From the NCBI RefSeq assembly GCF_013761175.1, contig NZ_JACDUR010000002.1, positions 440,816 through 504,815 on the forward strand: 64,000 bases of DNA. The letters are read 5' to 3'. Position numbers and translations under genes: made by a program. Of the stretch, positions 35,729 through 63,601 are shown piece after piece. Within the stretch, counting starts at the first letter, position 1, and each line of letters begins with the position of its first letter. This stretch comes from Nonomuraea soli (GTDB taxonomy: Bacteria > Actinomycetota > Actinomycetes > Streptosporangiales > Streptosporangiaceae). The notes below the pieces were generated by a model that did not search any database, had not been told where the DNA came from, and saw only the letters and a program-made list of their open reading frames with translations.

Positions 35729-36688
35729 CTAGAGCCGGGCGAGCGCCTCGGTGAGGCCCTTGCTCGCCGCGTCGCGCAAGGGTGCGTACTCCTCCTCCGG
35801 GTACTGCCGCGGACCGTTCTCGACCAGCAGGATCAGGTAGAGGTAGGCCCGGTACAGGTCGAGCCTGACCGGATCCAGTTCGAGCGGGGCGATCTCGCGG
35901 TAGCCGGCCAGGAACGGGTCGGCGGGGTCGACCTCGGCGAAGATCGTCGGGGTGATCAGCTCGGCCAGCGGGTCGCCCCAGAAGGCCCGTTCCAGGTCGA
36001 TGACGGCCTGGATGCGGGGTGTGCCGCCCGACAGGTCCACGAAGGCGTTGCCCGGCCAGATGTCGAAGTGCACCAGCCGGGGTTCGGTGACCGCGTCGAG
36101 GGCGGGCGCGGAGCGGTGCACCCGGTCGCGGATCTCGGCTTCCGGCACCGGCAGCTCGGTCGGGTAGCGCTCGGTGTCCTTCAGCAGCGCCTCCACCATC
36201 GCCAGGAAGGCCTCGCGCCAGGTGGCGCCGGTGATGCCGCTGTGCGGGTAGCCGTAGACGTCGCCGCGCACGGAGTTGAACCTGGCCATGTGCCCGCCGA
36301 GCTCGCGGCGCAGCGCCGCCTGGGTCTCGTCGGGGAGCCGCACCTGGTTCCACGACGTGCCGGTGAGCGCCGACAGGACGAGGTAGTCGCCGCCCAGCAC
36401 GGGGTCGTCGAATCCGGCCGCCACGAGGTCGGCCAGCGGCACGCCCGCCGCTCCCGCCAGTTCGTAGGCGCGTGCCTCCATGCGCAGCAGGTCGCGCTCG
36501 TAGGTGAGCTGTTCGAGTTCTGGAGGAGGCGACAGCTTGAGCACGACGTCGCGGCCGTCGTCGAGGGACAGCCGCCACACGGCGTTGGCGAAGCCGTCGG
36601 TCAGTTCGGCCGAGGTGACGATTGCGGCGCCTGTCGCGCGTCTGGCCAGGGCGTCGAGCTCTTCGGGGGTGAGACGCCGCTTGGTCAT
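35729..36688 (-). CDS. APH-fold small-molecule kinase
   Basis: A 319-aa aminoglycoside-phosphotransferase/choline-kinase-like protein. The ATP-binding Lys is in DVVLKLSPP, the Brenner-type catalytic loop reads LVHFDIWPGNAFV (HxDxxxxN), and the metal-binding motif is VIDLERAFWGD. ATG at 36688 is preferred over 36697 because GGAG lies 5 nt ahead of it. A CebR-like operator with one mismatch sits 27 nt upstream. Its neighbour across the divergent region is a sugar-type importer, so a role as a sugar or metabolite kinase is more likely than antibiotic resistance. The substrate is unknown. Confidence 0.85.
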   Translation of the reverse strand: MTKRRLTPEELDALARRATGAAIVTSAELTDGFANAVWRLSLDDGRDVVLKLSPPPELEQLTYERDLLRMEARAYELAGAAGVPLADLVAAGFDDPVLGGDYLVLSALTGTSWNQVRLPDETQAALRRELGGHMARFNSVRGDVYGYPHSGITGATWREAFLAMVEALLKDTERYPTELPVPEAEIRDRVHRSAPALDAVTEPRLVHFDIWPGNAFVDLSGGTPRIQAVIDLERAFWGDPLAELITPTIFAEVDPADPFLAGYREIAPLELDPVRLDLYRAYLYLILLVENGPRQYPEEEYAPLRDAASKGLTEALARL

Positions 36689-36714
36689 GCTCTCCATGGG
36701 GGAGAGCGTACGGG

Positions 36715-36728
36715 TGAGAGCGCTCCCA
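36715..36728. promoter_or_regulatory. CebR/CelR-like operator, one mismatch
   Basis: TGAGAGCGCTCCCA matches the 14-bp palindrome TGGGAGCGCTCCCA at 13 of 14 positions. It lies 27 nt upstream of the kinase start on the minus strand, where a repressor would block the transcript. Confidence 0.7.
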
Positions 36729-36780
36729 TTGGGTGCCGAAAGCCTAACATTGCGGATATGTCACGCGCTTCCTGGGTCTA

Positions 36781-36809
36781 TTGACACAGAGAAGCGCCGA
36801 TTTTACGGT
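36781..36809 (+). promoter_or_regulatory. Promoter of the sugar-type ABC operon
   Basis: TTGACA (36781-36786), a 17-bp spacer and TACGGT (36804-36809) form a good housekeeping promoter reading toward the binding-protein gene. The CebR-type operator begins about 37 bp past the -10, so a bound repressor would act as a roadblock to the elongating polymerase. Confidence 0.6.
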
Positions 36810-36845
36810 CGCGTTACCTGATTGGTGCGAGGCGAGCCTCGCCAA

Positions 36846-36861
36846 ATGGGAGCGCTCCCAT
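36846..36861. promoter_or_regulatory. CebR/CelR-type operator, perfect
   Basis: ATGGGAGCGCTCCCAT is a perfect 16-bp palindrome containing the known 14-bp CebR/CelR recognition sequence. It lies 78 bp upstream of the ABC binding-protein start, in the leader of that operon. Confidence 0.88.
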
Positions 36862-36938
36862 CACAGCAGACCTTCGGGGGCTGGTGCTCGAGGACAACTC
36901 TGCCGGGTGTGGCCGGATCAGAGACGAAGGAGAATTCC

Positions 36939-38711
36939 ATGCGCAACAGTTGGCGGTTACTCACGCCCTTAGTCGCGGCGGGTCTGGCCGTAGCCGCCTG
37001 CTCATCCGGCGGCACGCCGCAGACCGGCGGGCAGGCCTCGCCGGGCGGTTCCGCTCCGCCGGCCACCCAGCCGGCGCAGCAGCCGGCCCAAGCAGGGGAG
37101 TTCCCCCGCAACGAGACTCTCTACTCCACGGGAACGATGTGGGGTCCGCCCGCCAACTTCAACCCGATGGACGAGGGCAACCACGCCACCGGAACGGTCG
37201 GCCTGGTCTACGAGACCCTGTTCCACTTCGACACCAACGCCAAGAAGCTGACGCCGTGGCTGGCCGAGAGCGGCAGCTGGACCGACGACAAGACCTACGT
37301 CGTCAAGCTCCGCTCGGGCGTCACCTGGAACGACGGCAAGCCGTTCACCGCCAAGGACGTCGCCTTCACCTACGGGCTCGGCAAGATCAAGGGCAGCGCC
37401 TTCGCCCACGTGTGGGACTGGCTGGAGGCCGTCGAGGCCACCGACGACCAGACCGTCACGGTGAAGTTCAAGACCGCCAAGTACAGCCAGTGGGACTTCG
37501 AGCTCTACCAGCGGGCGATCGTGCCGCAGCACCTCTGGGAGGGCAAGGACGACAAGGACGTGCTCACCGGGATGAACGAGAACCCGGTCGGCACGGGCGC
37601 CTACAAGTACCTCAGCCACGCCGACGACCGCGTCGTCTACCAGCGCCGCGACGACTGGTGGGGCAAGACGGCCCTGAACATGGAGCCCAAGCCCAAGTAC
37701 TTCGTGCACATCGTCACCCCGAGCAACGAAGTCGCCCTCGGCCTGTTCATGCAGAAGCAGCTGGACCTGGCCAACAACTACATCCCCGGCATGAACCGCA
37801 TCGCCGGTGAGGCCTCGGGCATCCACACCTACTACCCGCAGGCGCCGTACAACCTGTCGGCCAACACCGCGTGGCTGGTGCCCAACACCACCAAGAAGCC
37901 GCTGAACGACGCGGCCTTCCGCAAGGCGCTGGCGACCTCGGTCGACGTGCCGAGCATCGTCAAGAACGTCTACGGCGAGGTGGTCCAGGCCGCCAGCCCG
38001 ACCGGTCTGCTGCCCGGCTGGAAGGACTTCGACGACCAGGCGGTCATCGGCGAGAAGGGCTTCACCTTCAACACCGACAACGCCAAGAAGATGCTCGCCG
38101 ACGCCGGCTACAAGGACACCGACGGCGACGGCCTGGTGGAGAACAAGGACGGCAGCAAGATCAGCCTCAAGCTGATCACCCCTGCCGGCTGGAGCGACTG
38201 GAACCAGTCGGCCAGCGTCATCGCGACCAGCGCCAAGGCCGCGGGCATCGACGTCACCGCCGAGACCCCCGACTTCCCCGCGCTCCTCGAGGCACGCAAC
38301 GCCGGCAAGTTCGACCTGGTGATCAACAACGAGCGCCAGCTGTCGGTCAGCCCGTGGACCTACTACGACTACCTGTTCCGCCAGCCGGTCAACGAGGTGC
38401 AGAACACCGTCAACTTCGGCCGGTACGAGAACAAGCAGGCGTGGGACCTCGTCCAGCAGCTCGACGCCGTCAAGACCGACGACGTCGAGGGCATGAAGAA
38501 GGTCATCTCGCAGCTCCAGGCCATCCACCTGGACGAGCTGCCTGCCATCCCGCTCTGGTACAACGGCGTCTGGTCGCAGGCCAGCAACGGCGTGTGGAAG
38601 AACTGGGGCGCCGACGGCGGCGCGAACAAGTACCCGGCCGTGTTCTGGCGCCACTGGTTCGAGATGGGCGGCTTCGAGACGCTGACCCAGCTCCAGACCA
38701 ACGGCTCCTGA
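36939..38711 (+). CDS. Opp-type substrate-binding lipoprotein, likely for oligosaccharides
   Basis: A 590-aa family-5 solute-binding lipoprotein (signal peptide with AVAAC lipobox, Cys21, then a Gly/Pro/Gln-rich linker). Residues about 60-80 read ETLYSTGTMWGPPANFNPMD; the body has LRSGVTWNDGKPFTAKDVAF. Near residue 395 is a calcium-loop-like DTDGDGLVENKDG. Family-5 proteins bind peptides but some bind cello-oligosaccharides (for example Thermotoga TM0031-type). The CebR-type operator upstream and the epimerase nearby favour a cello-oligosaccharide ligand; this is inference. AAGGAG precedes the ATG at 36939. It heads a five-gene importer operon. Confidence 0.9.
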   Translation: MRNSWRLLTPLVAAGLAVAACSSGGTPQTGGQASPGGSAPPATQPAQQPAQAGEFPRNETLYSTGTMWGPPANFNPMDEGNHATGTVGLVYETLFHFDTNAKKLTPWLAESGSWTDDKTYVVKLRSGVTWNDGKPFTAKDVAFTYGLGKIKGSAFAHVWDWLEAVEATDDQTVTVKFKTAKYSQWDFELYQRAIVPQHLWEGKDDKDVLTGMNENPVGTGAYKYLSHADDRVVYQRRDDWWGKTALNMEPKPKYFVHIVTPSNEVALGLFMQKQLDLANNYIPGMNRIAGEASGIHTYYPQAPYNLSANTAWLVPNTTKKPLNDAAFRKALATSVDVPSIVKNVYGEVVQAASPTGLLPGWKDFDDQAVIGEKGFTFNTDNAKKMLADAGYKDTDGDGLVENKDGSKISLKLITPAGWSDWNQSASVIATSAKAAGIDVTAETPDFPALLEARNAGKFDLVINNERQLSVSPWTYYDYLFRQPVNEVQNTVNFGRYENKQAWDLVQQLDAVKTDDVEGMKKVISQLQAIHLDELPAIPLWYNGVWSQASNGVWKNWGADGGANKYPAVFWRHWFEMGGFETLTQLQTNGS

Positions 38712-38722
38712 CTGTCTGACCC

Positions 38723-38750
38723 GCCCCCTCGCGCAGCTGCGCGAGGGGGC
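38723..38750 (+). promoter_or_regulatory. Hairpin between binding-protein and permease genes
   Basis: A perfect 28-nt inverted repeat (GCCCCCTCGCGCAG and its complement, no spacer) is followed by TCTCTAA. It sits 12 nt after the binding-protein stop and 60 nt before the permease start. As in the first Opp-type operon, it could stabilise the upstream message or cause partial termination. Confidence 0.7.
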
Positions 38751-38809
38751 TCTCTAACGGGGGGCCGCTCCAGGCCGCGGCCTCCCATTAGTCCACGGAG
38801 GACTCGCGC

Positions 38810-39793
38810 GTGCGCCGCTACTTCGGCAGGAAACTCCTGCTCTACGGGCTGACCTTCTTCGTCGCCGTGACCATCAACTGGATGATCCCGCGCTTCATGC
38901 CGGGTGACCCCGTCTCGACCATGCTGGCCCGCCGCACCGTCAACGATCCGGCGGCCTACGAGCAGATGCGGGTCTACTACAGCGACCTGTTCGGCCTGGA
39001 CAAGCCGATCTGGGAGCAGTACCTGAACTTCTGGGGCTCGCTGCTGCAGGGGGACTTCGGCATCAGCGTCTGGGCCTTCCCGACCCCGGTGGGCAGCGTG
39101 ATCCTGTCGGCTCTGCCGTACACGCTGGCCCTGGTGATCCCGGCGGTCCTGCTGAGCTGGGTGGTGGGCAACTGGTTCGGCGCTTTCGCCGCCCGCCGCA
39201 AGCTGCTCGACAGCGCGGTCCTGCCCGTCGGCTACCTGCTGACCGCCATGCCGTACATGTGGCTCGCGGCGCTGCTGGCCTGGGTGCTGGGCGTGGTGAC
39301 CGGCTGGTTCCCCTTCGCCGGCGGCTACAGCTTCTCCCGCACGCCCGAGCTGACCTGGCCCTTCATCCAGGACCTGATCATGCACTGGGTGCTGCCGTTC
39401 CTCTCGCTCTTCCTGGTCGCGCTCGGCGGCTGGGCGATCGGCATGCGCAACATGATCATCTACGAGCTCGACTCGGACTACTCGAACTACCTGGGCGCGC
39501 TCGGCGCCCCCAACCGGCTGATCCGCCGCTACGCCTTCCGCAACGCGATGCTGCCGCAGATCACCGGACTGGCCCTGCAACTGGGCGTCATCGTGGCGGG
39601 CGCGGTGGTCACGGAGATCGTCTTCGCCTATCCCGGCCTGGGCCTGACCATCCTGCGCGCCATCCAGAACCTCGACTTCTTCCTCCTGCAGGGCGTCTTC
39701 CTGTTCATCGTCGTGGGCGTGCTGATCGCCAACTTCGTCATCGACGTCGTCTATCTGCTGGTGGACCCGCGGACAAGGATCGGTGTGGCATGA
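38810..39793 (+). CDS. Opp-type ABC permease (B subunit)
   Basis: A 327-aa permease of usual OppB length with six membrane segments. N-terminal FVAVTINWMIPRFMPGDP matches the family pattern. The EAA loop is SNYLGALGAPNRLIRRYAFR, followed by NAMLPQITGLALQLG. The GTG start at 38810 follows CACGGAGGA. Its stop overlaps the start of the next permease by 4 nt. Unlike the expanded OppB at 3333-4841 it has no inserted segments. Confidence 0.92.
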   Translation: MRRYFGRKLLLYGLTFFVAVTINWMIPRFMPGDPVSTMLARRTVNDPAAYEQMRVYYSDLFGLDKPIWEQYLNFWGSLLQGDFGISVWAFPTPVGSVILSALPYTLALVIPAVLLSWVVGNWFGAFAARRKLLDSAVLPVGYLLTAMPYMWLAALLAWVLGVVTGWFPFAGGYSFSRTPELTWPFIQDLIMHWVLPFLSLFLVALGGWAIGMRNMIIYELDSDYSNYLGALGAPNRLIRRYAFRNAMLPQITGLALQLGVIVAGAVVTEIVFAYPGLGLTILRAIQNLDFFLLQGVFLFIVVGVLIANFVIDVVYLLVDPRTRIGVA

Positions 39794-40686
39794 CGGCGCT
39801 GCAAGAGATCACCACGCGCGAGGCCGAGTCGGCGTCCGGGCCCAGCCGCGACTGGCTGCACTTCGCGGTCCGCAACAAGAAGCTGGTCATCGGCACGCTG
39901 ATCATCCTGCTGTTCCTGTGCATCGGCGTTTTCGGCCCGCTGCTGGCCCGCTCGGGCTCGGCCTACGACTTCGTCGGGCCTCGCATGGAGCCGCCGTCGT
40001 CGGAGTTCTGGTTCGGCACGACCCTGTTCGGCCAGGACATCTTCGCGCAGTTCGTGTACGGCGTGCGCAACGCCTTCATGGTCGGGCTGTTCGGCGGCGG
40101 CGTCGCCGCGATCGTCGGCATGGTCGTCGGCTTCCTGGCCGGATACCGCGGCGGCTGGGTCGACGAGGTGCTGAGCATGATCACCAACGTGGTGCTGGTG
40201 CTGCCCTCGCTCGCGGTCCTCATCGTGGTCAACGCCTACCTCGGCATCAGGAGCATCCCCGCCCAGGCGCTGTTCATCGGCCTGACCATGTGGCCGTGGG
40301 CCGCCCGCGCCATCCGGGCGCAGACCTTCTCGCTGCGCTCGCGCGACTTCGTCGACCTGGCCAGGCTCAGCGGCTCGGGCACCGGGAGGATCATCGCCAG
40401 GGAGATCGCCCCGAACATGAGCTCCTACCTGGTCATGATGTTCATCCTGATGTTCGGCGGCGCCATCCTGACCGCCGCGTCGCTCGACTTCATCGGCCTG
40501 GGGCCGACCGAGGGCGTGTCGCTGGGCCTGATGCTCCAGCACGCGAGCGTCAACAGCGCCCTGCCGCTGGGCCTGTGGTGGTGGTTCGTCCCGCCGGGAG
40601 CGGCGATCACCGCCCTGGTGGGCGCCATGTACGTGGCCAACGTCGGGCTGGACGAGGTCTTCAACCCCAAGCTCAGGGAGATGTGA
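39790..40686 (+). CDS. Opp-type ABC permease (C subunit)
   Basis: A 298-aa permease with an N-terminal cytoplasmic stretch (about 25 residues) and six hydrophobic segments. Family motifs: FGTTLFGQDIFAQFVYG and the EAA loop DFVDLARLSGSGTGRIIARE. The ATG at 39790 overlaps the upstream stop (ATGA), and the next gene starts 1 nt after its stop. It forms the translocation pore with the preceding permease. Confidence 0.92.
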   Translation: MTALQEITTREAESASGPSRDWLHFAVRNKKLVIGTLIILLFLCIGVFGPLLARSGSAYDFVGPRMEPPSSEFWFGTTLFGQDIFAQFVYGVRNAFMVGLFGGGVAAIVGMVVGFLAGYRGGWVDEVLSMITNVVLVLPSLAVLIVVNAYLGIRSIPAQALFIGLTMWPWAARAIRAQTFSLRSRDFVDLARLSGSGTGRIIAREIAPNMSSYLVMMFILMFGGAILTAASLDFIGLGPTEGVSLGLMLQHASVNSALPLGLWWWFVPPGAAITALVGAMYVANVGLDEVFNPKLREM

Positions 40687-40687
40687 C

Positions 40688-41632
40688 GTGACGCTGAAGG
40701 TCGATGACCTGCGGGTCTACTACCGGACGCTGCGCGGCGAGGTGAAGGCGCTCGACGGCGTCAGCTTCACGCTGGCCGACGGCGAGATCATGGGCCTGGC
40801 GGGGGAGTCGGGCTGCGGGAAGTCCACGCTGGGCAAGAGCCTGATCCGCCTGGACCAGCGCATGAAGCACGTCGGCGGGAGCGTCGAGCTCGACGGCCAG
40901 GTGCTGCCGATCGCCGACGACCGGCGCATGAACGCCCACCGCTTCTTCGAGGTCTCGCTCATCCCGCAGTACTCCATGAGCGCGCTCAACCCCACCCGCA
41001 AGATCGGCAGGATGATCGAGGAGCTGCTGCGGTCGCGGGGAGCCCCCTTCGACAGGAAGGAGCTGGAGCGGCGGCTGCACCTGGTCGGCCTGAGCACCGA
41101 CGTGCTCGACCGCTACCCGATCGAGCTGTCGGGCGGCATGAAGCAGCGCACCGTCATGGTCATCTCCACCCTGCTCGACCCCTCGCTCCTGATCGCCGAC
41201 GAGGTCACCTCCGCCCTCGACGTGTCGAGCCAGCGCGCCGTGGCGCAGACCCTCCTGGAGTTCCGCGACCGCCACCTGGTCAAGAGCATGATCGTGGTCA
41301 CCCACGACCTGTCGCTCGTCTACCAGATCGCCGACACGATCATGGTCATGTACGCGGGGAAGCTCGCCGAGAAGGCACCCGCCAAGACCATCGTCAACGC
41401 GCCCCGCCATCCTTACACGCAGGCGCTTATCAACTCCCTGCCCGAGGTGGGCGTGCGCTACTCCGAGCGCAGGCTCCAGGGCATCCCCGGCAGCCCCCCG
41501 TCGCTGCTGAACCCGCCCAAGGGCTGCCGCTTCCGCGACCGCTGCCCGCTCGCCTTCGACAAGTGCGAGACCGAGCCGCCGTTCACGGAGATCGCGCAGG
41601 GACACTCCGTCGCGTGCTGGAAGGCGATCTAG
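40688..41632 (+). CDS. Opp-type ABC ATPase (D subunit)
   Basis: A 314-aa ATPase. Walker [11 protein letters not shown]-loop LIPQYSMSALNP, signature LSGGMKQRTV and Walker B LLIADEVTSALD. The usual Pro after DE is Val here. A C-terminal CRFRDRCPLAFDKC motif is typical of Opp-family ATPases. GTG start, 1 nt after the permease stop. It abuts the second ATPase gene. Confidence 0.92.
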   Translation: MTLKVDDLRVYYRTLRGEVKALDGVSFTLADGEIMGLAGESGCGKSTLGKSLIRLDQRMKHVGGSVELDGQVLPIADDRRMNAHRFFEVSLIPQYSMSALNPTRKIGRMIEELLRSRGAPFDRKELERRLHLVGLSTDVLDRYPIELSGGMKQRTVMVISTLLDPSLLIADEVTSALDVSSQRAVAQTLLEFRDRHLVKSMIVVTHDLSLVYQIADTIMVMYAGKLAEKAPAKTIVNAPRHPYTQALINSLPEVGVRYSERRLQGIPGSPPSLLNPPKGCRFRDRCPLAFDKCETEPPFTEIAQGHSVACWKAI

Positions 41633-42538
41633 ATGCTCAAGCTCGACAAGGTCGGCAAGACCTACAGGATCGGGGCGTTCGGCGGCCAGGAGCTGCGGGC
41701 CGTCCACGACGTGAGCTTCCAGGTGAACCCCGGCGAGGTCGTCTCGCTCATCGGGGAGAGCGGCAGCGGCAAGTCCACGATCGGCAAGATGGTGCTGCGC
41801 CTGCTGCCCCCCAGCGCCGGCGCCATCACGCTCGACGGCACTCCCGAGGCCGACTACTACCGCCACGTCCAGGGCGTCTTCCAGGACCCCTTCAGCTCCT
41901 ACAACCCGATCTTCAAGGCCGACCGGGTCTTCGAGATGGTCCGGCAGGGCTTCGGCCTGCCGTCGCAGGACTGGCGCGAGAAGGTCGAGGCGGCCCTGCG
42001 GTCGGTGCGCCTGGACCCCGGTGCCGTGCTCGGCAAGTATCCGCATCAGCTGAGCGGGGGCCAGCTGCAGCGCATGCTGATCGCCCGAGCCCTGCTGCTG
42101 GAGCTGAAGGTCCTGGTCGCCGACGAGATCATCAGCATGCTCGACGCCTCGACGAGGATCGACGTGCTCAACCTCCTCGGGGAGCTGCGCGAGCGCGGTC
42201 TGGGCATCCTGTTCATCACCCACGACCTGTCGCTGGGCAACTACGTCAGCGACCGCACCGTCGTGCTCTACAAGGGCCGGATGGTCGAGACGGGCCGCAC
42301 CGACCGGGTCTTCGGCGACCCCCGCCACCCCTACACGCGCCGCCTGCTGGCCTCCGTGCCGCAGCTGCACCGCAAGTGGTCGGAAGAGGAGGAGCAGCCG
42401 GAGCCCGAGGCGGAATGCCTGTTCCACGCGCCGGGCGAGGGCTGGGTGGAGCCCGACCACTTCGTCGGCTGCGCCTTCGGCGGCGAGCAGGACGAATGCC
42501 CGCGCGCCGCCGAGGCGGTCGTCATCCCGCTGCGCTGA
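41633..42538 (+). CDS. Opp-type ABC ATPase (F subunit), diverged
   Basis: A 301-aa ATPase with Walker [11 protein letters not shown]-loop VFQDPFSSYNP, signature LSGGQLQRML and Walker B VLVADEIISMLDAS. The Walker B and D-loop differ clearly from the canonical DEPTSALD, although the catalytic Glu is kept. The C-terminus has a shortened Cys motif (ECLFHAPGEG, later VGCAFGGEQDEC). ATG directly follows the D-subunit stop. Its 3' end overlaps the convergent epimerase gene by 17 bp. Confidence 0.9.
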   Translation: MLKLDKVGKTYRIGAFGGQELRAVHDVSFQVNPGEVVSLIGESGSGKSTIGKMVLRLLPPSAGAITLDGTPEADYYRHVQGVFQDPFSSYNPIFKADRVFEMVRQGFGLPSQDWREKVEAALRSVRLDPGAVLGKYPHQLSGGQLQRMLIARALLLELKVLVADEIISMLDASTRIDVLNLLGELRERGLGILFITHDLSLGNYVSDRTVVLYKGRMVETGRTDRVFGDPRHPYTRRLLASVPQLHRKWSEEEEQPEPEAECLFHAPGEGWVEPDHFVGCAFGGEQDECPRAAEAVVIPLR

Positions 42539-43382
42539 CCGTCCGGATGGTCCAGCTCGCCTCGTGGCTCCGGCCCGGGGCGAGCCGGATCAGGCCGGTG
42601 CCCGAGTTGAAGGCGTCGGGCGGGCACGTCATCGGCTCCACGGCCAGGCCGGCGTGCCCCAGCCCGGTGCCGGTGCAGACCTGCACCCACGGCATGACCG
42701 CGGCGTCCCACACGATCTCGACGCAGCCGTGACGCACCCGGCCCTCGGACAGGCCCGTGAACGCGTGGTCGATGGCGGTGTCGCCGACCTTGCGCGGCTC
42801 CCTGAAGTCGTACGGCGTGGTCTCGACGCCGGTCAGCTCGCGCGGCACGAGCGCCTCGTCGACGAGCAGGACCTGGGAGGCGGGAAGGTGCAGCTCGTCG
42901 ACGTCCGACAGCAGCCACGGGTGCGGGCCGCAGCCGTAGGGCGCGGGGCGATCGCCGGTGTTGCGGGCGGTCAGCGTGCTCGTCAGGCCGCCGGAGCCGA
43001 GGCGGTGCACGATCTCCAGCCCCAGGCTGAAGGGGTAGCCGGGGGAGGGCTCCAGCGCGAGCGTCAGCCGTACGAAGGCGTGGTCGTCCTCGACCTGGAG
43101 GAACTCCGCGACCGTCCACTCGGCCTCGGCGACCAGGCCGTGCAGGGCGTGCCCGCGGTCCGGCTCGTTGACCGGGAGCCGGTGCTCCTCGCCGTCGAAC
43201 ACGTAACGCGCGCCCGCCACGCGGTTGGGCCAGGGAGCCAGCACCGTGCCGCTGTAGTAGGGGATCGGGCCGTCGGCCGGCCAGCTCGTGACCAGGTCGC
43301 GCTCGCCGTCACGCAGCACGCGAACGGCAGCGCCGCGCGCCGAGACGTCGGCGAGCAGGCTGCCGCTACGCAGGGTAGGCAC
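42522..43382 (-). CDS. Aldose 1-epimerase family protein
   Basis: A 286-aa mutarotase-like enzyme that interconverts alpha and beta anomers of free sugars. Motifs: YYSGTVLAPWPNRVAGARY, RGHALHG with a catalytic-type His, YGCGPHPWLL and the catalytic Glu region LAVEPMTCPPDAFNSG. The GTG at 43382 has AAAGGACT upstream; a longer in-frame start at 43448 overlaps the E2 gene and is unlikely. It is the last gene of the E1-E2 operon on the minus strand. Its presence ties that operon to sugar catabolism. Confidence 0.88.
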   Translation of the reverse strand: MPTLRSGSLLADVSARGAAVRVLRDGERDLVTSWPADGPIPYYSGTVLAPWPNRVAGARYVFDGEEHRLPVNEPDRGHALHGLVAEAEWTVAEFLQVEDDHAFVRLTLALEPSPGYPFSLGLEIVHRLGSGGLTSTLTARNTGDRPAPYGCGPHPWLLSDVDELHLPASQVLLVDEALVPRELTGVETTPYDFREPRKVGDTAIDHAFTGLSEGRVRHGCVEIVWDAAVMPWVQVCTGTGLGHAGLAVEPMTCPPDAFNSGTGLIRLAPGRSHEASWTIRTVSAAG

Positions 43383-43404
43383 TGGGGAGTCCTTTCGAGA
43401 TGTG

Positions 43405-44454
43405 TCAAGACAGGGTAATGGGTGCCCGCAACGCGGCGGCCAATGCACCCAGGAACGCGGCGGCGTCCCTGCCGTTGAGGAAACGGTGGTCGTAGGCCAG
43501 GCCCAGCGTCACCACGCGCCGTCCGTCCGTCTCCTGCCGCGGCGCCGTCAGCGACAGCGCGCAGGTGTGGCCCGGGTAGACGATGGGGGTCGCCAGGATC
43601 ACGCCGTCGTCGGGGTGCAGGGCCAGCAGGATGTTGGCGCCGCTCAGGTCCGCCTCGGTGAACGTCCCGTTCAGTGCCGTGCGGCGGTAGCGCGCCAGGT
43701 CGGCGGCCAGCTCGGCGGTCGGGCGGCCGGTGGCGTCGCGCAGCACGGGGACGAACATGCCGTTGCCGAGGTCCACGGTCACCCCCACGTGGGCCGCGCC
43801 CGCGCGCCGCGCGCTCCTTCCGCTGACCGGCGTGGCGAAGCACAGCGGGAACTTCTCGACCAGGCTTCCCGCCGCCTTGACGACCAGCTCGGGCACGCCG
43901 ATCAGGACCCGGTCGCGCCGGGACAGGACGCGGGCGTGCGACAGCGCGTCGGTCACGTCGACGCGCATTGCGGTGAAGGCGGCGGGAATGGCGGCGTGGG
44001 ACTCCTCGACCACGGCCGCCACCCGGCGCTGGGTCCTCGACAGGTGGATCAGGTCGGGGTCCAGGTCGTCGGTGGTGACGACCTTCTTGCCGAGCGCGTG
44101 GACCTCCTCCAGCGTGATGCCCCGCTCGGCCATGAGAGCCTGCGCGGGCCTGGTGATGACCACCGTGGCGGCCCGCTCGCCCTCGGCGGCGGCCGGGGAA
44201 GCGACGCCCGGCGCGGGCTCCTCGCCGAGGCTCAGCCGGGCGATCACCTGGCCGGGCGCGCACTCGGCGCCCTCCGCCAGAGCATGCCTCAGCACGCCGT
44301 CGTGCTCGGCCGTGAGCTCCTCCACCGTCTTGGAGGTCTCCAGCTCCACGATGGCCTCTCCGGCCCGTACGGCGCGGCCGTCGGCCGCCAGCCAGGCGAC
44401 CACGAGATAGGCCGTGTCGTTGCTGTTGAGCTTGGGCACCAGGATGTCGGTCAC
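43405..44454 (-). CDS. 2-oxoacid dehydrogenase acyltransferase (E2)
   Basis: A 349-aa lipoyl-bearing acyltransferase. The lipoyl domain is at about residues 1-75, with ELETSKTVEEL placing the lipoylated Lys. A short E1/E3-binding region is at about 100-135 (PAQALMAERGITLEEVHALG). The catalytic domain follows, ending with YDHRFLNGRDAAAFLGALAA. The active-site His is present; the Asp usual in DHRxxDG is Asn. GTG at 44454 overlaps the E1-beta stop (GTGA). It transfers the acyl group from E1-bound TPP to CoA. Confidence 0.9.
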   Translation of the reverse strand: MTDILVPKLNSNDTAYLVVAWLAADGRAVRAGEAIVELETSKTVEELTAEHDGVLRHALAEGAECAPGQVIARLSLGEEPAPGVASPAAAEGERAATVVITRPAQALMAERGITLEEVHALGKKVVTTDDLDPDLIHLSRTQRRVAAVVEESHAAIPAAFTAMRVDVTDALSHARVLSRRDRVLIGVPELVVKAAGSLVEKFPLCFATPVSGRSARRAGAAHVGVTVDLGNGMFVPVLRDATGRPTAELAADLARYRRTALNGTFTEADLSGANILLALHPDDGVILATPIVYPGHTCALSLTAPRQETDGRRVVTLGLAYDHRFLNGRDAAAFLGALAAALRAPITLS

Positions 44455-45503
44455 GTGACGGTCTCCAGTACGGCACGGCGGATGTCGCCGGGCTGCAGCA
44501 GGACCTCGCGCTCCAGGTGCGCCGCCGCGGGGATGACACTGTCGGCCGAACTGACCAGCGTGACCGGCTTGCGCAGAGCCGGCCACATCCGGGAGTGGAG
44601 CGCCGCGGCGACGTCGGCGCCCCAGGTGCCGCCCGCCGTGCTCTCCTCGGCGACCACGACGTGCCTGGAGGCCGGGAGCAGTTCTGGCAGGGGGTGGAGC
44701 CGGGAGGGCACCAGGATCTCGCAGACCACCTCGTGCTCCATCAGCAGGTCCTCGGCCGCCGCCAGGGCCCGGTGGGCCACCCCGCCCGGCACGATCAGCG
44801 TGCAGTCGGGCTCGCCGCCCCCGTCGAGGCTCACGCGGGCCACCTCGTCGCCCGGATACGCGCCGCGGCCGGCGAAGCCGACGCGGAAGAGCGGGCCCGC
44901 CTCGAACATCCTGCGGGTGTAGAGGACCTTGTCCTCGAACAGCAGGCACGGCAGGCCCTGCTCCAGCATCCCGGCCAGCAGGCGGGTGGCGTCGTGGAAG
45001 GGCGTCAGCTCGTACACGCGCAGGCCGGGGATGCCGATGAAGTGCTTCTGCGGGCTCTGGCTGTGGGTGGCGCCGTAGCCCCGGTTGCCGCCCGAGGGGC
45101 AGCGGACGATCAGCGGGACCGGGACCGGCCTGCCGTACATCGCGGTGGACTTGGCGGCGAAGTTGGCCAGCTGGTCGAAGGCGAGCGTCACGAAGTCGGC
45201 GAACATGATCTCGACGATCGCCTTGGCCCCCGCCAGCGCCAGCCCGGCGCCCACGCCGGTGATCGCGCCCTCGCTGATGGGGGTGGAGCGGACACGGTCG
45301 CCGAAACGGGTGGAGAGACCCTTGGTGATCTTGAAGGCTCCGCCGTACGGGTCGGTGATGTCCTCGCCCAGGACGTGCAGGTCGGGGTCGGCCTCGAGGA
45401 GGTCGTGCAGCGCCCGGTTGAGGTGCTCGGCCACCCGGGGCGCGGGCCCCTGCACCGCGCCCTCCCGCGCCGCGGACTGGCGGGCGTCGGCGACATCGGT
45501 CAC
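44451..45503 (-). CDS. 2-oxoacid dehydrogenase E1 beta subunit
   Basis: A 350-aa thiamine-diphosphate-dependent transketolase-like subunit. Motifs: LGEDITDPYGGAFKITKGLS, RSTPISEGAITGVGAGLALA, VPLIVRCPSGGNRGYGATHS, and a C-terminal domain with CEILVPSRLHPLP. GTG at 45503 overlaps the E1-alpha stop by 4 nt. It resembles pyruvate/acetoin dehydrogenase beta subunits. The oxidised 2-oxo acid cannot be read directly; pyruvate from sugar is the simplest guess. Confidence 0.92.
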   Translation of the reverse strand: MTDVADARQSAAREGAVQGPAPRVAEHLNRALHDLLEADPDLHVLGEDITDPYGGAFKITKGLSTRFGDRVRSTPISEGAITGVGAGLALAGAKAIVEIMFADFVTLAFDQLANFAAKSTAMYGRPVPVPLIVRCPSGGNRGYGATHSQSPQKHFIGIPGLRVYELTPFHDATRLLAGMLEQGLPCLLFEDKVLYTRRMFEAGPLFRVGFAGRGAYPGDEVARVSLDGGGEPDCTLIVPGGVAHRALAAAEDLLMEHEVVCEILVPSRLHPLPELLPASRHVVVAEESTAGGTWGADVAAALHSRMWPALRKPVTLVSSADSVIPAAAHLEREVLLQPGDIRRAVLETVT

Positions 45504-46390
45504 GCGCGCTCCCACACCGAGAGCGGGCGGGCCGAGACGTCGGCCACGATGCGGCCGACCAGGGCCTGGATCTCCAGGTCCAGATCGCCACCCGCGGCGT
45601 GCCGGTACCAGTCGGCCGCGCGAGCCTCGTCGAGCTCCTGGGCGGGGCGGGTGTCGTCGCCCTTGCTGTGCGGCCCGAGCCGGTGGGTGACGAACTCCAC
45701 GACGATCGGGCAGCTCTCCTCCCGGACGGCGGCTACCAGGGGCGCGAGCTCGGCGCGGATCGTGCCGATGTCGGTCGTGGCCAGCCGGATGTGCGGCAGG
45801 TCGAAGGCGGCGGCGCGCGCCGCGATGGTGCCGGCCAGGTGCCGGTGGGTGGGGGTGGACTGGGCGATGCCGTTGTTCTCGACGACGACCAGCAGGGGCA
45901 CGCGCCACAGGGCCGCCATGTTGAGCGCCTCGTAGACGGCGCCCTCGCCCCAGGTGCCGTCGCCCACGTGCACGCAGGCCAGCGCCCCGGTGCCCTTGAG
46001 CCGCAGCGCGGTGCCGACGGCCACGGGCAGGCTCTCGCCCTGGACGCCGGTGGACAGGAACCGGTGGTGGTAGATGTGCTGGCTGCCGCCGACGCCCGAG
46101 CAGAGCGCGCCCTCGCGGCCCATGATCTCCGCGAGCAGGCCTGGCGCGTCGCCGTAGCGGGCCAGCAGGTGGCCGTGGCCGCGGTGGTTGCTGAAGACGT
46201 AGTCGTCAGGGCGCAACAGCGGCGACAGGGCGACGGGGATGTACTCCTGGCCCAGGCAGGTGTGCGTGGTGCCGCCGATCTGGCCGGCCTCGAACAGCCG
46301 CAGCAGCGACAGCTCGAAGTGGCGGATGAGGAGCAGGCTGCGCAGATCCTCGGTGCTGAGACCGCGAACCGCCTCGGCGAGGCCGGTCAT
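45500..46390 (-). CDS. 2-oxoacid dehydrogenase E1 alpha subunit
   Basis: A 296-aa TPP-binding subunit. The TPP motif runs from GDGTWGEGAVYEALNMA to VVVENN (GDG-x25-NN type), with FSNHRGHGHLLARYGD and GVGGSQHIYH before it. ATG at 46390 has GGAG 8 nt upstream and matches the usual N-terminus; an in-frame extension to 46483 would run through the promoter and operator. It is the first gene of the operon E1-alpha, E1-beta, E2, epimerase. No E3 (dihydrolipoyl dehydrogenase) gene is present, so E3 must be shared. Confidence 0.92.
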   Translation of the reverse strand: MTGLAEAVRGLSTEDLRSLLLIRHFELSLLRLFEAGQIGGTTHTCLGQEYIPVALSPLLRPDDYVFSNHRGHGHLLARYGDAPGLLAEIMGREGALCSGVGGSQHIYHHRFLSTGVQGESLPVAVGTALRLKGTGALACVHVGDGTWGEGAVYEALNMAALWRVPLLVVVENNGIAQSTPTHRHLAGTIAARAAAFDLPHIRLATTDIGTIRAELAPLVAAVREESCPIVVEFVTHRLGPHSKGDDTRPAQELDEARAADWYRHAAGGDLDLEIQALVGRIVADVSARPLSVWERA

Positions 46391-46432
46391 AACGGGACTC
46401 CAGATGCTCTCACGGGACCTCCCGGGAACGGA

Positions 46433-46446
46433 TGGGAGCGCTCCCA
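46433..46446. promoter_or_regulatory. CebR/CelR-type operator before the E1-E2 operon
   Basis: A perfect TGGGAGCGCTCCCA. It begins 7 nt past the -10 of the minus-strand promoter at 46454-46483, so it covers the transcription start of the E1-alpha operon. Confidence 0.88.
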
Positions 46447-46453
46447 CATTTGG

Positions 46454-46483
46454 AGCGTAGGAGGCGCGGATTCGAGATGTCAA
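46454..46483 (-). promoter_or_regulatory. Promoter of the E1-E2-epimerase operon
   Basis: Read on the minus strand: TTGACA (46483-46478), 18-bp spacer, TACGCT (46459-46454). It is a strong match to a housekeeping sigma promoter. The CebR-type operator is immediately downstream. Confidence 0.75.
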
Positions 46484-46588
46484 CCCCGTGTCTTGATGTG
46501 CCGGTCAAATTGCCTGACTCGACCCCGTATTGCGCCCCGAACACGCCGGAATTTCGGCCATCCGTTATGTCGATCGTGAGAAATATTC

Positions 46589-46618
46589 TTGACACTCAAC
46601 AAGCGACATTCCTAGCCT
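46589..46618 (+). promoter_or_regulatory. Promoter of the NRPS cluster
   Basis: TTGACA (46589-46594), 18-bp spacer, TAGCCT (46613-46618). The operator at 46626-46639 starts where transcription should start. The architecture mirrors the divergent E1-E2 promoter, so both units should respond to the same repressor. Confidence 0.75.
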
Positions 46619-46625
46619 CCGACGT

Positions 46626-46639
46626 TGGGAGCGCTCCCA
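46626..46639. promoter_or_regulatory. CebR/CelR-type operator before the NRPS cluster
   Basis: A perfect TGGGAGCGCTCCCA (with a further T on the right), 23 bp ahead of the first biosynthetic gene and about 8 bp after the -10 element. This is the classic position for transcription block. Confidence 0.9.
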
Positions 46640-46662
46640 TCAGCGCTGCCTTTGGGGGAACG

Positions 46663-48141
46663 ATGTCCGTGAAGTCCCTGCCTGATTTGTTATGCCTGCG
46701 GGCCGAGGAGGCGCCCACCGGCGACGCCGTGCTGGTCGAGGGGCGTGAGCCGCTCACGTACGGCCAGTGGAACCAACGCGCCCGCGCGCTCGCCGTACGG
46801 CTGGCCCTTCGAGGCGTGCGGCCGGGGGACCGGGTGGGGCTGCAGTTCTCCGAGCGGGACTGGCCCGAGTTCGCGGTGGCCTACTGCGGTACGCAGCTCG
46901 CCGGCGCCGTGGCCGTGCCGCTGTCGGACCGGCTGGCCCCGGCCGAGCTGGACTACATGCTGGGCCACTGCGAGGCGGTGGCGGTGCTGCACTCAGCAGG
47001 ACTGCGCCGGCCCCCGGGACCGTGGTGGACGGCCGCGTTGACGGAGATCGAGCCCGACGCGGCAGACGGCACGGAGCCGGAGATCACGATGCGCGGCGAC
47101 GACCCAGCGCAGATCCTTTACACCTCCGGCACCACGGGCCGTCCGAAAGGGGTGGTCGCGACGCACGCCAATCTCGTCCACGGCGCGGAGATTCGTGCCC
47201 GACGCCGCCGTTTCGGACACTCCCAGATCCTCCTTCATGCCTTCCCCATCGGGACGAACGCCGCCCAGCTCATGCTGTTCAACGCGCTCGACGCCCACCC
47301 CGCCGTCCTGAGCCCCGCGAGGTTCACCCCCGCCCGATTCGCCCGGCTGATCGGCACCAGGCCGGTCGGCACGGTCTTCCTGGTCCCCTCGATGGCGATC
47401 GAACTGCTCGACGCGGGCCTGCACGAGCGCTACGACTTCTCCGGCGTGCGGCTGCTGGGCTCGGCGGCGGCGGCGCTGCCCCCCGCCGTGGCCAGGCGCC
47501 TGGCGCAGGCCTTCCCGAACGCGGCGATCGTCAACTACTACACCTCGACCGAGGCCGCCCCCGCCCAGACGATCATGATGTACGACCCGGCCAGGCCCGG
47601 GGCGCTGGGCCGTCCCGCGGCGGGAAGCGCGCTGCGGATCCTGACCGAGAAGGGGGCCCCCGCCGCGACGGACGAGGTGGGCGAGGTGTGGCTGCGTTCG
47701 GCGGCCGCCTCGCGCGCCTACCTCGGCGAGGGCGCCTCGCCGACCTTCCGCGACGGCTGGGTGCGCATGGGCGACCTGGGCCGCCTCGACGCCGACGGCT
47801 ACCTCTACCTCGTCGACCGCGAGAGCGACGTGGTCAAGTCCGGCGCGTTCAAGGTCTCCACCCTGCACGTGGAGTCCGCGCTGCACGAACACCCCGACAT
47901 CGCGGAGGCCGCCGTCTTCGGCCTGCCGCATCCCGTCCTGGGCACCGTCCTGGCCGCCGCGGTGGTCCCGCGCCGGGACGCGACGCTGTCGCCCACCTCG
48001 ATCCGCGCCTTCCTGATGGACCGGATCGCCACGCACGAGCTGCCCGCACGGGTGGCCGTCCTGGAGTCCCTGCCCAAGAACACCTCGGGCAAGGTGCTCA
48101 AACGCCGCCTGCCCGAGCTCCTCGATTCGTCTCGGAGTTGA
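46663..48141 (+). CDS. Acyl-AMP ligase, NRPS starter activation
   Basis: A 492-aa adenylate-forming enzyme. Motifs: ILYTSGTTGRPKGVV (A3), NYYTSTEAAPAQT (A5), RMGDLGRLDADGYLYLVDRE (A7-A8) and the C-terminal Lys in NTSGKVLKRRLPEL. It has no fused carrier domain. It probably activates a carboxylic-acid starter for loading on a carrier protein, or makes the CoA ester. ATG at 46663 follows GGGGGAA; in-frame starts upstream would lie in the operator and promoter. It is the first gene of a plus-strand cluster that runs beyond 64 kb. Confidence 0.88.
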   Translation: MSVKSLPDLLCLRAEEAPTGDAVLVEGREPLTYGQWNQRARALAVRLALRGVRPGDRVGLQFSERDWPEFAVAYCGTQLAGAVAVPLSDRLAPAELDYMLGHCEAVAVLHSAGLRRPPGPWWTAALTEIEPDAADGTEPEITMRGDDPAQILYTSGTTGRPKGVVATHANLVHGAEIRARRRRFGHSQILLHAFPIGTNAAQLMLFNALDAHPAVLSPARFTPARFARLIGTRPVGTVFLVPSMAIELLDAGLHERYDFSGVRLLGSAAAALPPAVARRLAQAFPNAAIVNYYTSTEAAPAQTIMMYDPARPGALGRPAAGSALRILTEKGAPAATDEVGEVWLRSAAASRAYLGEGASPTFRDGWVRMGDLGRLDADGYLYLVDRESDVVKSGAFKVSTLHVESALHEHPDIAEAAVFGLPHPVLGTVLAAAVVPRRDATLSPTSIRAFLMDRIATHELPARVAVLESLPKNTSGKVLKRRLPELLDSSRS

Positions 48142-48142
48142 C

Positions 48143-49630
48143 ATGACCCCAGCCCAGCACGGCATGTGGCTGACCGAACGCGCCGGGCTCGGCGGACCGG
48201 TGCACCACCTGCCGCTCCGGGTGCGCTTCGCTGGCCCCCTCGACACGGACGCGCTTCTGGCGGCCTGCGCCGCCGTGGTGGCCCGCCATCCGGCGCTGAC
48301 CGCCGCCTTCCCCGACGGCCGGGCCCTGTACGGCGCGGCCAGACCGGCCATCCGCCTGGCCCAGGATCCGGACGCCGACCCGGATGACGAGGCGGCCCAG
48401 CCGTTCGACGTGGAGTCGGGGCCGCTGGCGCGCTTCACGCTGTATCGGCGTGGCGAGGAGGACCACCTGCTGCAGGTGGTGGCGCACCACCTGGTCTTCG
48501 ACGGGGTGTCCAAGGATCTGCTGCTGGCCGACCTGGCGCAGGCGTACGGCGGAGCGGACCTGCCTGCCGCCGCCGCTCCGCCGGAGGCGCCCGAGGCAGA
48601 GTCCCCGGCAGAGGTCCCGGCAGAGGTCCCGGCAGAGGTCTTGGCGGCGGATCGCCCGGCAGCGGAGGGTGGGCTGGAGCGGGCGGCGCGGTTCTGGGAG
48701 AGCCGGTGGCGCGACGACCCCACCCTCCTGCCGGGCCACGGCAGCTCCTCGCCGCGCCCCACGCGGGCCGACGCCGTCACCCTCGATCTCGGCGACCTGC
48801 GCGACGCCGCGCAGGCACTGGAGGTGACCCGCTTCGAAGCACTGGTGACGGCCCTGATCCTGGTGCTGCACGGCTACGGCAACGACCGTCCTGCCGTGGC
48901 GGTGGACGTCTCCACCCGCACCCCCGAGACCGACGACGCCATCGGCCACCACGCCAACGAGCTGCCCGTGTTCGTCACCCCCGAGGGCACCTACCGGGAG
49001 ACGGCGGCGGCGGTGCGCGCGGAGCTGCGTGCCGCCTACCGCCACCGGCAGGTGCCCGTGCCACGGGCGGTCGGCGGCATCTCGCCCAGGAGCGCGTTGA
49101 AGCCGGTGACGGTCAGCTTCCGCGAGCGAGGGCGGCCCGAGCCGGTCTTCCCAGGCGTCGAGGCCGAGGTCGACTGGGCGGTGCCGACCGGGTGGATCCG
49201 GGGCAGCCTGCACGTCCAGGTTGTCGACGAGCTGGCGCGGCTGCACGCCGGGCCGGGAGTGCGCGGGGACGAGGTGGCGGCGCGTCTGCGTGCCGTCCTG
49301 CGGGCCGACCCCGACCTGCCGATCGTCGCCCTGCCACTGCCCGCCCGCCTGACCCCTGCCGCACTCGACGGACCCGCGGACGGCGCAGTGGACGGCGCCG
49401 TGGACTCCGAGCTGGTCGCGAAGGTGACGGAGATCTTCCGCGAGGCGCTCCAGGTCGGCGACATCCAGCCCGACGACGACCTGTTCGACCTGGGAGGCCA
49501 CTCCCTGACGGTCACCACGATCATCGGCCTGGTCAAGGAGCGCCTGGCCGAGGAGCTGTCGTTCGAGGTGTTCATCGACACCCCCACCGTCACCGGCGTC
49601 GCCGGGGAGATCGCGAGGACGAGGTGCTGA
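48143..49630 (+). CDS. NRPS condensation-carrier didomain protein
   Basis: A 495-aa protein. The condensation domain (about 1-395) has the active site HHLVFDGVS near residue 115, fitting HHxxxDG. A linker near residues 150-170 contains PAEV repeats. A carrier domain at about 415-495 has DLFDLGGHSLT with the phosphopantetheine Ser near 454. There is no adenylation domain, so the carrier must be loaded in trans, perhaps by the ligase encoded just upstream. It starts 1 nt after the ligase stop and overlaps the next gene by 7 nt. Confidence 0.88.
   Translation: MTPAQHGMWLTERAGLGGPVHHLPLRVRFAGPLDTDALLAACAAVVARHPALTAAFPDGRALYGAARPAIRLAQDPDADPDDEAAQPFDVESGPLARFTLYRRGEEDHLLQVVAHHLVFDGVSKDLLLADLAQAYGGADLPAAAAPPEAPEAESPAEVPAEVPAEVLAADRPAAEGGLERAARFWESRWRDDPTLLPGHGSSSPRPTRADAVTLDLGDLRDAAQALEVTRFEALVTALILVLHGYGNDRPAVAVDVSTRTPETDDAIGHHANELPVFVTPEGTYRETAAAVRAELRAAYRHRQVPVPRAVGGISPRSALKPVTVSFRERGRPEPVFPGVEAEVDWAVPTGWIRGSLHVQVVDELARLHAGPGVRGDEVAARLRAVLRADPDLPIVALPLPARLTPAALDGPADGAVDGAVDSELVAKVTEIFREALQVGDIQPDDDLFDLGGHSLTVTTIIGLVKERLAEELSFEVFIDTPTVTGVAGEIARTRC
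48604..48639 (+). repeat. 12-bp repeat in the C-PCP gene
   Basis: Three tandem copies of CCCGGCAGAGGT encode PAEV repeats in a flexible linker within the condensation-domain gene. In-frame unit length. Confidence 0.9.
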
Positions 49631-49857
49631 GGGAGCGGATCGCCGAGCTGGTGAGCCAGGCCAGCGGCGGCGAGCTGGAGGCGGCCGAGGTGCTGGCGGC
49701 GGACTGCCCGCTGCCCGCGCTCGGGGTGACCTCGCTGGTCTACATCAGGTTGCTGGACGCGATCGAGCTGGAGTACGGGGTGGACCTGGATGCCGAGGCG
49801 GGCTGGCTGGACACGCTCGACGGCCTGGTGGCGAGCCTTGAGGCGGCCGGGCGATGA
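49624..49857 (+). CDS. Free-standing carrier protein
   Basis: A 77-aa carrier protein (PCP/ACP). The phosphopantetheine-site motif is [16 protein letters not shown], with Ser in TSL. Typical PCP motifs carry GGHS; the GVTS form is closer to stand-alone aryl or acyl carrier proteins. The GTG at 49624 follows CGAGGACGAG and overlaps the preceding stop. Its stop overlaps the mbtH start. It may receive the starter from the AMP ligase. Confidence 0.85.
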
Positions 49858-50072
49858 ACGCTGAGGAGACGTCGATGATGTGGGTGGTCGTCAACCACGA
49901 GGAGCAGTACTCGATCTGGTGGAGCGACCGTGAGCCGCCCGCCGGGTGGCGTGGCGCCGGGTTCGAGGGCAGCCGCGAGGAGTGCCTGGAGCACATCGCG
50001 GCCGTCTGGACCGACATGCGCCCGCTCAGCGTCAGGCCGGTCACCGATGAGGCCGCGGGAGGCTCGGGTTGA
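49854..50072 (+). CDS. MbtH-family protein
   Basis: A 72-aa MbtH-like protein that binds and activates NRPS adenylation domains. Diagnostic residues: [32 protein letters not shown] and VWTDMRPLS, including the three conserved Trp. Four-nt overlaps on both sides show coupling with the carrier protein and condensation genes. Confidence 0.95.
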
Positions 50073-51367
50073 GCAGCGACCGCCTGCTGGACAGGCTGGC
50101 CGCGTTGCCGCCGGAGCGGCGCCGGGCGCTGCTGGCCTCGGTCCAGGGCGGCGAGCGCACGTTCCCGCTGTCGAAGGCCCAGGAGCGGCTGTGGTTCCTA
50201 CACCGCTACGACCCCGCGGACTCCGCCTACAACATCGTCTGGACGATGCGGCTGCGCGGCGCCCTGGACGTGAGCGCCCTGGCCGCGGCGCTGACCTCGG
50301 TGGTGCGCAGGCACGAGGTGCTGCGTACCCGCTACCGGATGGTGGGCGAACGGGCGGCGCAGCTCGTCGACGCGCCCGCGCCCGTGGAGGTGGAGCGTGA
50401 CGGCGAGCTGGAGGAGTTCGCGACCCGCCCGTTCGACCTGGCACGGCGTGGCCCGCTCCGGGCGGCCGTGATCCGCACCGGACCGAGGGAGTGGCTGTTC
50501 TGCCTGGTGGTGCACCACATCGCGCTGGACGGCTGGTCGCTCGACACACTGATCGGGGAGATCGCCGAAGCGTACGCGGGCAGGTCGCTCGAGGTCGCGG
50601 AAACGCAATATCGGCATTTCGTTGAATGGGAGCGCTCCCAGGACGTTTCGGCGGCGGTCGCGCGCCGGGCCGAGGCGTTGGCGGGCGCTCCACCGCTCGA
50701 TCTGCCGGGCACCAGGCCCGCCCGCTGGAGCGGGCGCGGCGGCCGGGTGCGCGTCACCGTGCCCGACGAGATCACCACCCGGCTGGAAGGCGTCGCCAAG
50801 GCCAACCGGGCGACGTTGTTCATGGCGCTGCTGGCCGCCTTCGAGACCATGGTCTTCCGGGTCTCCGGTGCCACCGACTTCTGCGTGGGCGTACCGGTGG
50901 CAGGGCCCGGCCGTGTCGCCTTCCCCTCGCTGGTGGGGTGCCTGGCCAACACCATGGCCCTGCGGGCCGACCTGAGCGGTGAGCCCGGCTTCGCCGACCT
51001 GCTGCGCCGTACCCGCGTGGCGACCCTGGGCGCGCTGCAGCACGCCGCCGCGCCGTACGAGGAGGTGCTGGCGGCGGTGCGCCCGCCTCGCGACCCGAGC
51101 CGGCCGCCGCTGTGCCAGGTGATGTTCAACCTCACCCACAACCTGCCCAAGCAGCGGCTGCTCAGCGCCTCGATGGGCGACCTGGAGGCCGAGGTGCTGG
51201 ACCCGCCCCCGCCGCGCAGGGCCAAGGCGGACCTGTCGGTCGAGCTGTGGCGCGGCCCGGAAGGGCTGGGCGGCTGGCTGGAGTACAACGCCGACCTGCT
51301 CGACGCCGCCGCCGCCGAGCGGCTGGCCGCCCTGTACGCCTCCATCGTCACCGAGGAGACACGATGA
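50069..51367 (+). CDS. Free-standing NRPS condensation protein
   Basis: A 432-aa condensation domain with the intact site HHIALDGWS near residue 150. C1-type motif [15 protein letters not shown] and C5-type [10 protein letters not shown] are recognisable. It should join the upstream acyl or aminoacyl chain to the glycine on the next protein. The TTG start at 50069 is supported by GGGAGG 6 nt upstream and a 4-nt overlap with mbtH. Around 50600-50650 the coding sequence holds a CebR-type operator and a cluster of codons rare for this genome (CAA, TAT, CAT, GTT). Confidence 0.9.
50627..50640. promoter_or_regulatory. CebR/CelR-type operator inside an NRPS gene
   Basis: A perfect TGGGAGCGCTCCCA within the condensation gene, encoding W-E-R-S. 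The 26 bp before it (50601-50626) are about 60% AT, far above the local average. I see no convincing promoter on either strand, so it may act as an elongation roadblock, giving a second lock on the downstream NRPS genes. Confidence 0.75.

Positions 51368-59336: not shown

Positions 59337-63597
<4,261 letters not shown>

Positions 63598-63601
<4 letters not shown>

Follow-up and report, generated by a model that had tools for sequence, protein, structure and literature searches.

In the cellulose regulon of the LacI-type repressors CebR and CelR, a 14-nucleotide palindrome, TGGGAGCGCTCCCA, is associated with a ceb operon and with cellulase genes (PMC4898821). The thaxtomin (txt) cluster of Streptomyces scabiei, a non-ribosomal peptide synthetase (NRPS) cluster, contains CebR sites too and is switched on by cello-oligosaccharides (PMC8914351, PMC12527672); among the known clusters of that organism it is described as the only one under direct CebR control (PMC8914351). 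For CebR, thaxtomin is the sole entry in a 2025 table of sites found in clusters (PMC12527672). In the open-licence literature searched, available as partial texts, known CebR sites in an NRPS cluster are those of thaxtomin alone, and no report was found of sites for CebR, or for CsnR, the ROK-family regulator of chitosan use, on the NRPS family that encodes DUF6875 proteins. Here we describe a cluster of this family in a 64,000-nucleotide stretch of the Nonomuraea soli genome (contig NZ_JACDUR010000002.1, positions 440,816 to 504,815), hereafter the window. We propose, with a probability that we place at roughly 0.85, that the CebR encoded in a nearby ceb operon controls an Opp-type importer, an operon of E1/E2-like genes and this NRPS cluster through TGGGAGCGCTCCCA, and that it is released by cello-oligosaccharides.

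With the CebR/CelR regulon this genome shares the 14-mer, the ceb operon and the cellulases, and it differs in that the regulon would here extend to an NRPS family. As in txt, CebR sites are tied to an NRPS cluster; the hosts belong to different actinomycete orders, however, the core genes are unrelated by the domains seen, and whereas the window cluster has its sites directly at operon starts, those of txt are located within txtB and a long way upstream of txtR/txtA (PMC12527672).

CebR-type operators in the window and the genome

As recorded in an earlier note on this DNA, the window contains four exact copies of TGGGAGCGCTCCCA (36847-36860, 46433-46446, 46626-46639 and 50627-50640) and a fifth copy, TGAGAGCGCTCCCA, matching it at 13/14 positions (36715-36728); no further match with up to 3 mismatches was found in the window. 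Five sites with at most one mismatch compare with 0.03 expected from shuffled sequences (largest shuffle 1), and the note's chance argument pointed in the right direction. At up to 3 mismatches the same five compare with a shuffle mean of 8.78, i.e. no excess, so that the signal in the window is limited to near-perfect sites. Four of the five are intergenic. The predicted operators, given here without strand, lie 78 bp before the start (36939) of the gene for the importer's solute-binding protein (36847-36860), 42 bp before the start of the E1alpha gene (46390, minus strand; 46433-46446) and 23 bp before the start (46663) of the ligase gene that opens the NRPS operon (46626-46639), with the 1-mismatch site 17 bp before the start of a kinase gene (36697, minus strand). 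A site also precedes the same solute-binding protein gene in genomes G001 and G035, and G035 has an exact site ahead of E1alpha and both an exact and a 1-mismatch site in the region corresponding to 46626. The remaining exact 14-mer (50627-50640) lies in frame within an NRPS condensation domain across the codons TGG GAG CGC TCC CAG. Among these, GAG, CGC and TCC are frequently used by the genome, and G035 does not conserve the corresponding part of the protein. The site is probably coincidental; a functional CebR site within a coding gene is known in txtB (PMC12527672).

Throughout the 10.09-Mb genome the exact 14-mer is found at 17 places and the reversed pattern at none; with up to one mismatch the counts are 28 and 3. 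Summed over 54 Nonomuraea genomes, 543 exact sites compare with 2 reversed ones. The idea that the sites occur nowhere else holds for the window and fails for the genome. Apart from the four in the window, two of the 17 precede cebE, one precedes a gene for a glycoside hydrolase (GH) of family GH9, two lie between GH12 and lytic polysaccharide monooxygenase (LPMO) genes, and two more separate GH48 from GH6 genes; a GH3/GH5 gene pair has one between its members, and a second GH9 gene has one beside it. Another sits where an adenylation gene begins (C3:435 kb), another precedes a DUF6875-NRPS operon (C8:100 kb), and the last two belong to a further NRPS locus (C8:596-598 kb). With cellulase and LPMO genes beside them, the sites delineate a cellulase regulon across the genome. 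Of the sites with one mismatch, several fall within coding genes and are probably due to chance. At the last-named locus (L024:7884-9851), which encodes NRPS, YcaO and nitroreductase proteins, a 655-aa gene has one exact 14-mer overlapping its start codon and the second one within its sequence; this is possibly another CebR-controlled biosynthetic cluster.

The LacI-family gene that the note had asked for is present in a complete cebEFG-bglC-cebR operon 5.5 kb beyond the window, with two exact sites upstream. The operon runs in the order solute-binding protein, two permeases, GH1 and, last, the LacI-type gene (L016:10311-11342, minus strand; 69.5-70.5 kb on the scale of the window). Its CebE matches the cellobiose-binding protein 8bfy (4.7e-74), which we take to be CebE of S. 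scabiei. A published report agrees with this identity (PMC10714786). The best CebR match in each of the other 53 Nonomuraea genomes shows 71-80% identity and is taken as the orthologue, and among 62 relatives of CebR from named genomes, 29 have a locus that combines bglC, cebF and cebE with an exact site. With a LacI-type gene in a cebEFG-bglC locus and TGGGAGCGCTCCCA before both cebE and cellulase genes, the sequence supports the note's identification of the palindrome as the CebR/CelR operator, and the single repressor supposed in the note is likely.

Other LacI genes with related surroundings were observed in this genome. One (L019:4142-5148; C3:302 kb) has TGGGAGCGCTCTCA upstream and lies beside the GH12, LPMO, GH48 and GH6 genes; a second diverges from a sugar-binding protein gene with TGGGAGCGCTTCCA between them (L028:4040-6479; C6:32 kb); and a third, 50% identical to CebR, occurs with transporter and GH1 genes (L204:11622-15832; C4:606 kb) near a fourth DUF6875 cluster, which carries neither the CebR nor the ROK operator. 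The recognition-helix pattern used in searching for LacI proteins caught all but 4 of the 30 fetched LacI loci, CebR itself being among the four and read separately.

The DUF6875 NRPS family and its proposed sensors

DUF6875 was detected in 14 of 54 Nonomuraea genomes; a sample of 200 genomes from across the taxonomic family gave 33 with a match (31 above the cut-off). The family core comprises an NRPS-reductase, an FAD-monooxygenase, DUF6875, an MFS transporter and an O-methyltransferase. We fetched 39 loci, namely 19 of 20 matches within the genus (a fragment in G050 was left out) and 20 of 34 loci outside it, and kept the 32 with at least four of the five core genes, dropping G021, G079, G130, G116, G121b, G114b and G146. 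Within 10 kb of DUF6875, exact CebR sites occur in 10 of these 32 loci (21 sites) and the exact ROK box AGGAAANTTTCCT in 10 others, with both boxes in 0/32; each of 209 other palindromes of CebR-site composition was found in at most 1 locus, and 14 other ROK-type permutations in none. The window cluster enters this count only through site 50627, because its promoter sites lie more than 10 kb from DUF6875, as do the exact sites of G035. When more DNA was taken for 11 loci (the 10 then without a box, plus G233), exact CebR sites were present in 11/32 and exact ROK boxes in 12/32, G190a and G122 showing the latter once their promoter stretch was included. The adenylation code of the reductase module, DAGxMGHVC with an alignment-dependent fourth residue, recurs in 31 of the 32 loci whatever the wiring.

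The link between the NRPS genes and CebR sites is supported by conserved sites in related clusters of other species. Five Nonomuraea clusters lie far from ceb (G009, G011, G031, G042 and G016), their cebR being on a different contig or, in the case of G031, at a distance of 1.4 Mb, and each has two exact sites at conserved positions. In their shared footprint the distal operator is exact in 5/5. Behind a conserved TTGACT...TAGCGT-like block comes a second copy that matches less exactly, and the beginning of the adenylation gene has a third site, again exact, at which GGA and CCA are retained although these codons are rare. Loci from three other genera, G080, G067 and G182, have 1, 3 and 4 exact sites, respectively, and G035 keeps the entire island with its sites. 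Two loci on different contigs of the window's own genome (its loci are designated here by their contigs, own C2, C4, C6 and C8), at C3:435 kb and C8:100 kb (L021:5254-8097 and L023:8341-15948), resemble the two parts of these stand-alone clusters. An exact site and one with a single mismatch occur in each, and the L023 locus showed no FAD monooxygenase. Five ceb loci (L076, L079, L081, L082 and L099) from Sphaerisporangium, Microtetraspora and another Streptosporangiaceae genome have NRPS genes within 10 kb, 36-38% identical to the reductase module, and no further CebR site within 1 mismatch.

The second box, AGGAAANTTTCCT, is the published CsnR box (PMC6097792), and own C6 carries it with 1 mismatch. 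In the ROK-wired loci AATAGGAAACTTTCCTAAGA-like sequences are kept between the GH3 and NRPS genes, and related boxes lie at the promoters of the solute-binding protein/ROK and peptidyl carrier protein (PCP)/ligase genes. ROK, ABC and GH3 genes were seen beside these clusters, one ROK and one GH3 protein having been scanned against Pfam. They resemble the CsnR regulon of chitosan use in the box and the adjoining ROK gene, but the glycoside hydrolase seen beside them is GH3, where csn, whose gene set csnREFGHK also includes a kinase, has GH4 (PMC6097792). Eight loci have neither box: LacI and sugar transporter genes occur near G085, G179, own C4 and G190b, and sugar transporter genes near G159. 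No intergenic palindrome pointing to a third sensor was found to be shared by the box-less loci (similar pairs in G190b are weak), and a palindrome search without the intergenic filter gave only GC-rich coding repeats.

In a quick tree of concatenated FAD monooxygenase, DUF6875 and MFS proteins (1065 columns, SH-like approximate likelihood ratio supports only), with G035 labelled as CebR for its exact sites beyond 10 kb and own C6 as ROK for its 1-mismatch box, the three labels need 5 changes (CebR 3, ROK 2) against a shuffled mean of 15.0. Without the box-less loci 2 changes are needed, i.e. at least 2 switches between sensors; long branches are seen for four rows, including own C2 and C8, and gains and losses are indistinguishable on the tree. 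We lean, somewhat beyond an even chance, towards a plug-in mode of control, in which the same Streptosporangiaceae NRPS core would be placed by lineage under CebR or a CsnR-type ROK repressor, with at least two switches and with other members beside further LacI/sugar-transport loci, so that the metabolite would be made when a given polymer is digested, whichever sensor reports it. Because relatives carry the switch of CebR or of the other sensor, production appears tied to whichever polymer is being digested.

Competing explanations and a proposed mechanism

Several observations weigh against control by CebR. The genome encodes 51 LacI-type proteins, and as several of them share part of the CebR recognition helix, a paralogue could bind the sites. 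A promoter scan near the CebR sites found no sigma-70-type promoter, the loci compared are related and their counts not independent, and in S. scabiei most clusters responsive to cello-oligosaccharides are described as not under direct CebR control (PMC8914351). That another LacI protein with a similar site controls the NRPS genes, for instance the product of the gene at C3:302191 with TGGGAGCGCTCTCA before it, is favored further by the 1-mismatch sites directly upstream of this gene and of the LacI gene at C6:31900. Yet the recognition helix of the C3 protein, SPATASRALSG, differs from that of CebR, GRGTVSRVING, and the ceb operon adjoins the cluster in the window's genome, G035 and G080; we therefore regard control by a paralogue as unlikely.

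This adjacency invites another explanation, namely that the NRPS genes merely sit in the ceb neighborhood and that the sites serve the adjoining sugar genes only. The position of the cluster between the importer (opp) and ceb operons in N. soli and G035 fits it, as do the five ceb loci with neighboring NRPS genes and no further site. The five Nonomuraea clusters that have sites despite their separation from cebR speak against it and make it very improbable. Sites arising by chance or as coding artefacts are suggested by 50627 and C8:596037, both inside coding regions; as an account of the whole set we consider this negligible in view of the reversed, palindrome and shuffle controls and the conserved footprints.

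Control by CebR itself remains the reading we favor. The sites, the gene identities, their conservation across species and the depletion in controls are read directly from sequence, and on this basis CebR from the ceb operon would bind TGGGAGCGCTCCCA at cellulase genes, at the cebE promoter of its own operon and at the promoters of the importer, E1/E2 and NRPS genes. Entry of cello-oligosaccharides, the presumed ligands, would release it, upon which uptake, cellulose digestion and synthesis of the predicted NRPS metabolite would start together, with the E1/E2 operon most likely supplying a building block.

Gene content of the island and its implications

The importer operon comprises a family-5 solute-binding protein (PF00496; 36939..38711, plus strand) and two permease and two ATPase genes (38810..42538, plus strand; Pfam scan), the second permease, for which the frame start scanned gave no Pfam match, being assigned by position. 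Since the nearest solved relatives of the binding protein bind sugars, mannoside- and chitin-oligosaccharide-binding proteins among them, the note's reading of sugar import is favored over peptide uptake, and the substrates are probably beta-oligosaccharides. The divergent gene (35729..36697, minus strand) encodes an APH/fructosamine-kinase-like protein (PF01636, PF03881), and genes of 327-329 aa occupy the same position in G035 and G001, as matched by position.

On the minus strand follow genes for an aldose 1-epimerase-like protein (42522..43382; PF01263), an E2-like acyltransferase with a lipoyl domain (43405..44454; domain scans), an E1 beta subunit (44451..45503; NCBIfam) and an E1 alpha subunit (45500..46390; PF00676, NCBIfam), both NCBIfam matches being below equivalog cut-offs. 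Such E1/E2 genes lie beside the NRPS starter genes, a ligase and a condensation-PCP gene, in 9 of the 39 loci (G015a, G051, G009b, G031b, G038, own C4, own C2, G035 and G080), including loci without a CebR site. As they travel with these genes, the catabolic ketoacid oxidation read into them earlier was set aside, and they probably supply a building block for the NRPS. Two-component transketolases feed NRPSs in the dnacin and naphthyridinomycin pathways (PMC7570522), which suggests that the unit may be sugar-derived; the comparison with those clusters, which also have a terminal reductase, is made by gene type (PMC7570522).

The NRPS operon, entirely on the plus strand, begins with a stand-alone AMP ligase (46663..48141; PF00501, best NCBIfam matches acyl-CoA ligases), followed by a condensation-PCP protein (48143..49630; domain scan), a free PCP (49624..49857; by reading and homology), an MbtH-like protein (49854..50072; by reading), a condensation domain protein (50069..51367; Pfam scan) and, by domain scans, an adenylation-PCP protein (51364..53124), a condensation-adenylation-PCP module (53121..56153) and a condensation-like protein (56150..57409). 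The core genes then encode a VioC-like FAD monooxygenase (57406..58683; best NCBIfam match VioC, below its cut-off), the DUF6875 protein (58680..59336; Pfam scan) and a condensation-adenylation-PCP-reductase NRPS (59333..63601; domain and NCBIfam scans), after which an MFS exporter (63598..64000; domain scan) continues past the window. DUF6875 proteins have been described as heme proteins oxidizing tryptophan (PMC13307353), and that of the cluster is possibly a heme oxygenase. Beyond the MFS gene (L016) lie an O-methyltransferase gene, four more genes and cebR, bglC, cebG, cebF and cebE. The txt cluster includes an AraC-type activator, TxtR; none was found among the cluster genes scanned here, a few small genes lying outside the scan. 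G001 is without a DUF6875 match, and a gap of 147 bp separates the ends of its convergent opp and ceb operons; in N. soli and G035, E1/E2 and NRPS genes occupy about 27 kb at this place. The island may have been gained here or lost in G001.

Many natural-product clusters are silent in the laboratory, and in this family the sequence itself points to the inducers, namely cello-oligosaccharides for some of the clusters and probably amino-sugar oligosaccharides for others. The family lets one test directly how a cluster swaps its sensor yet keeps its chemistry, and also why the digestion of a polymer and the production of a metabolite are coupled.

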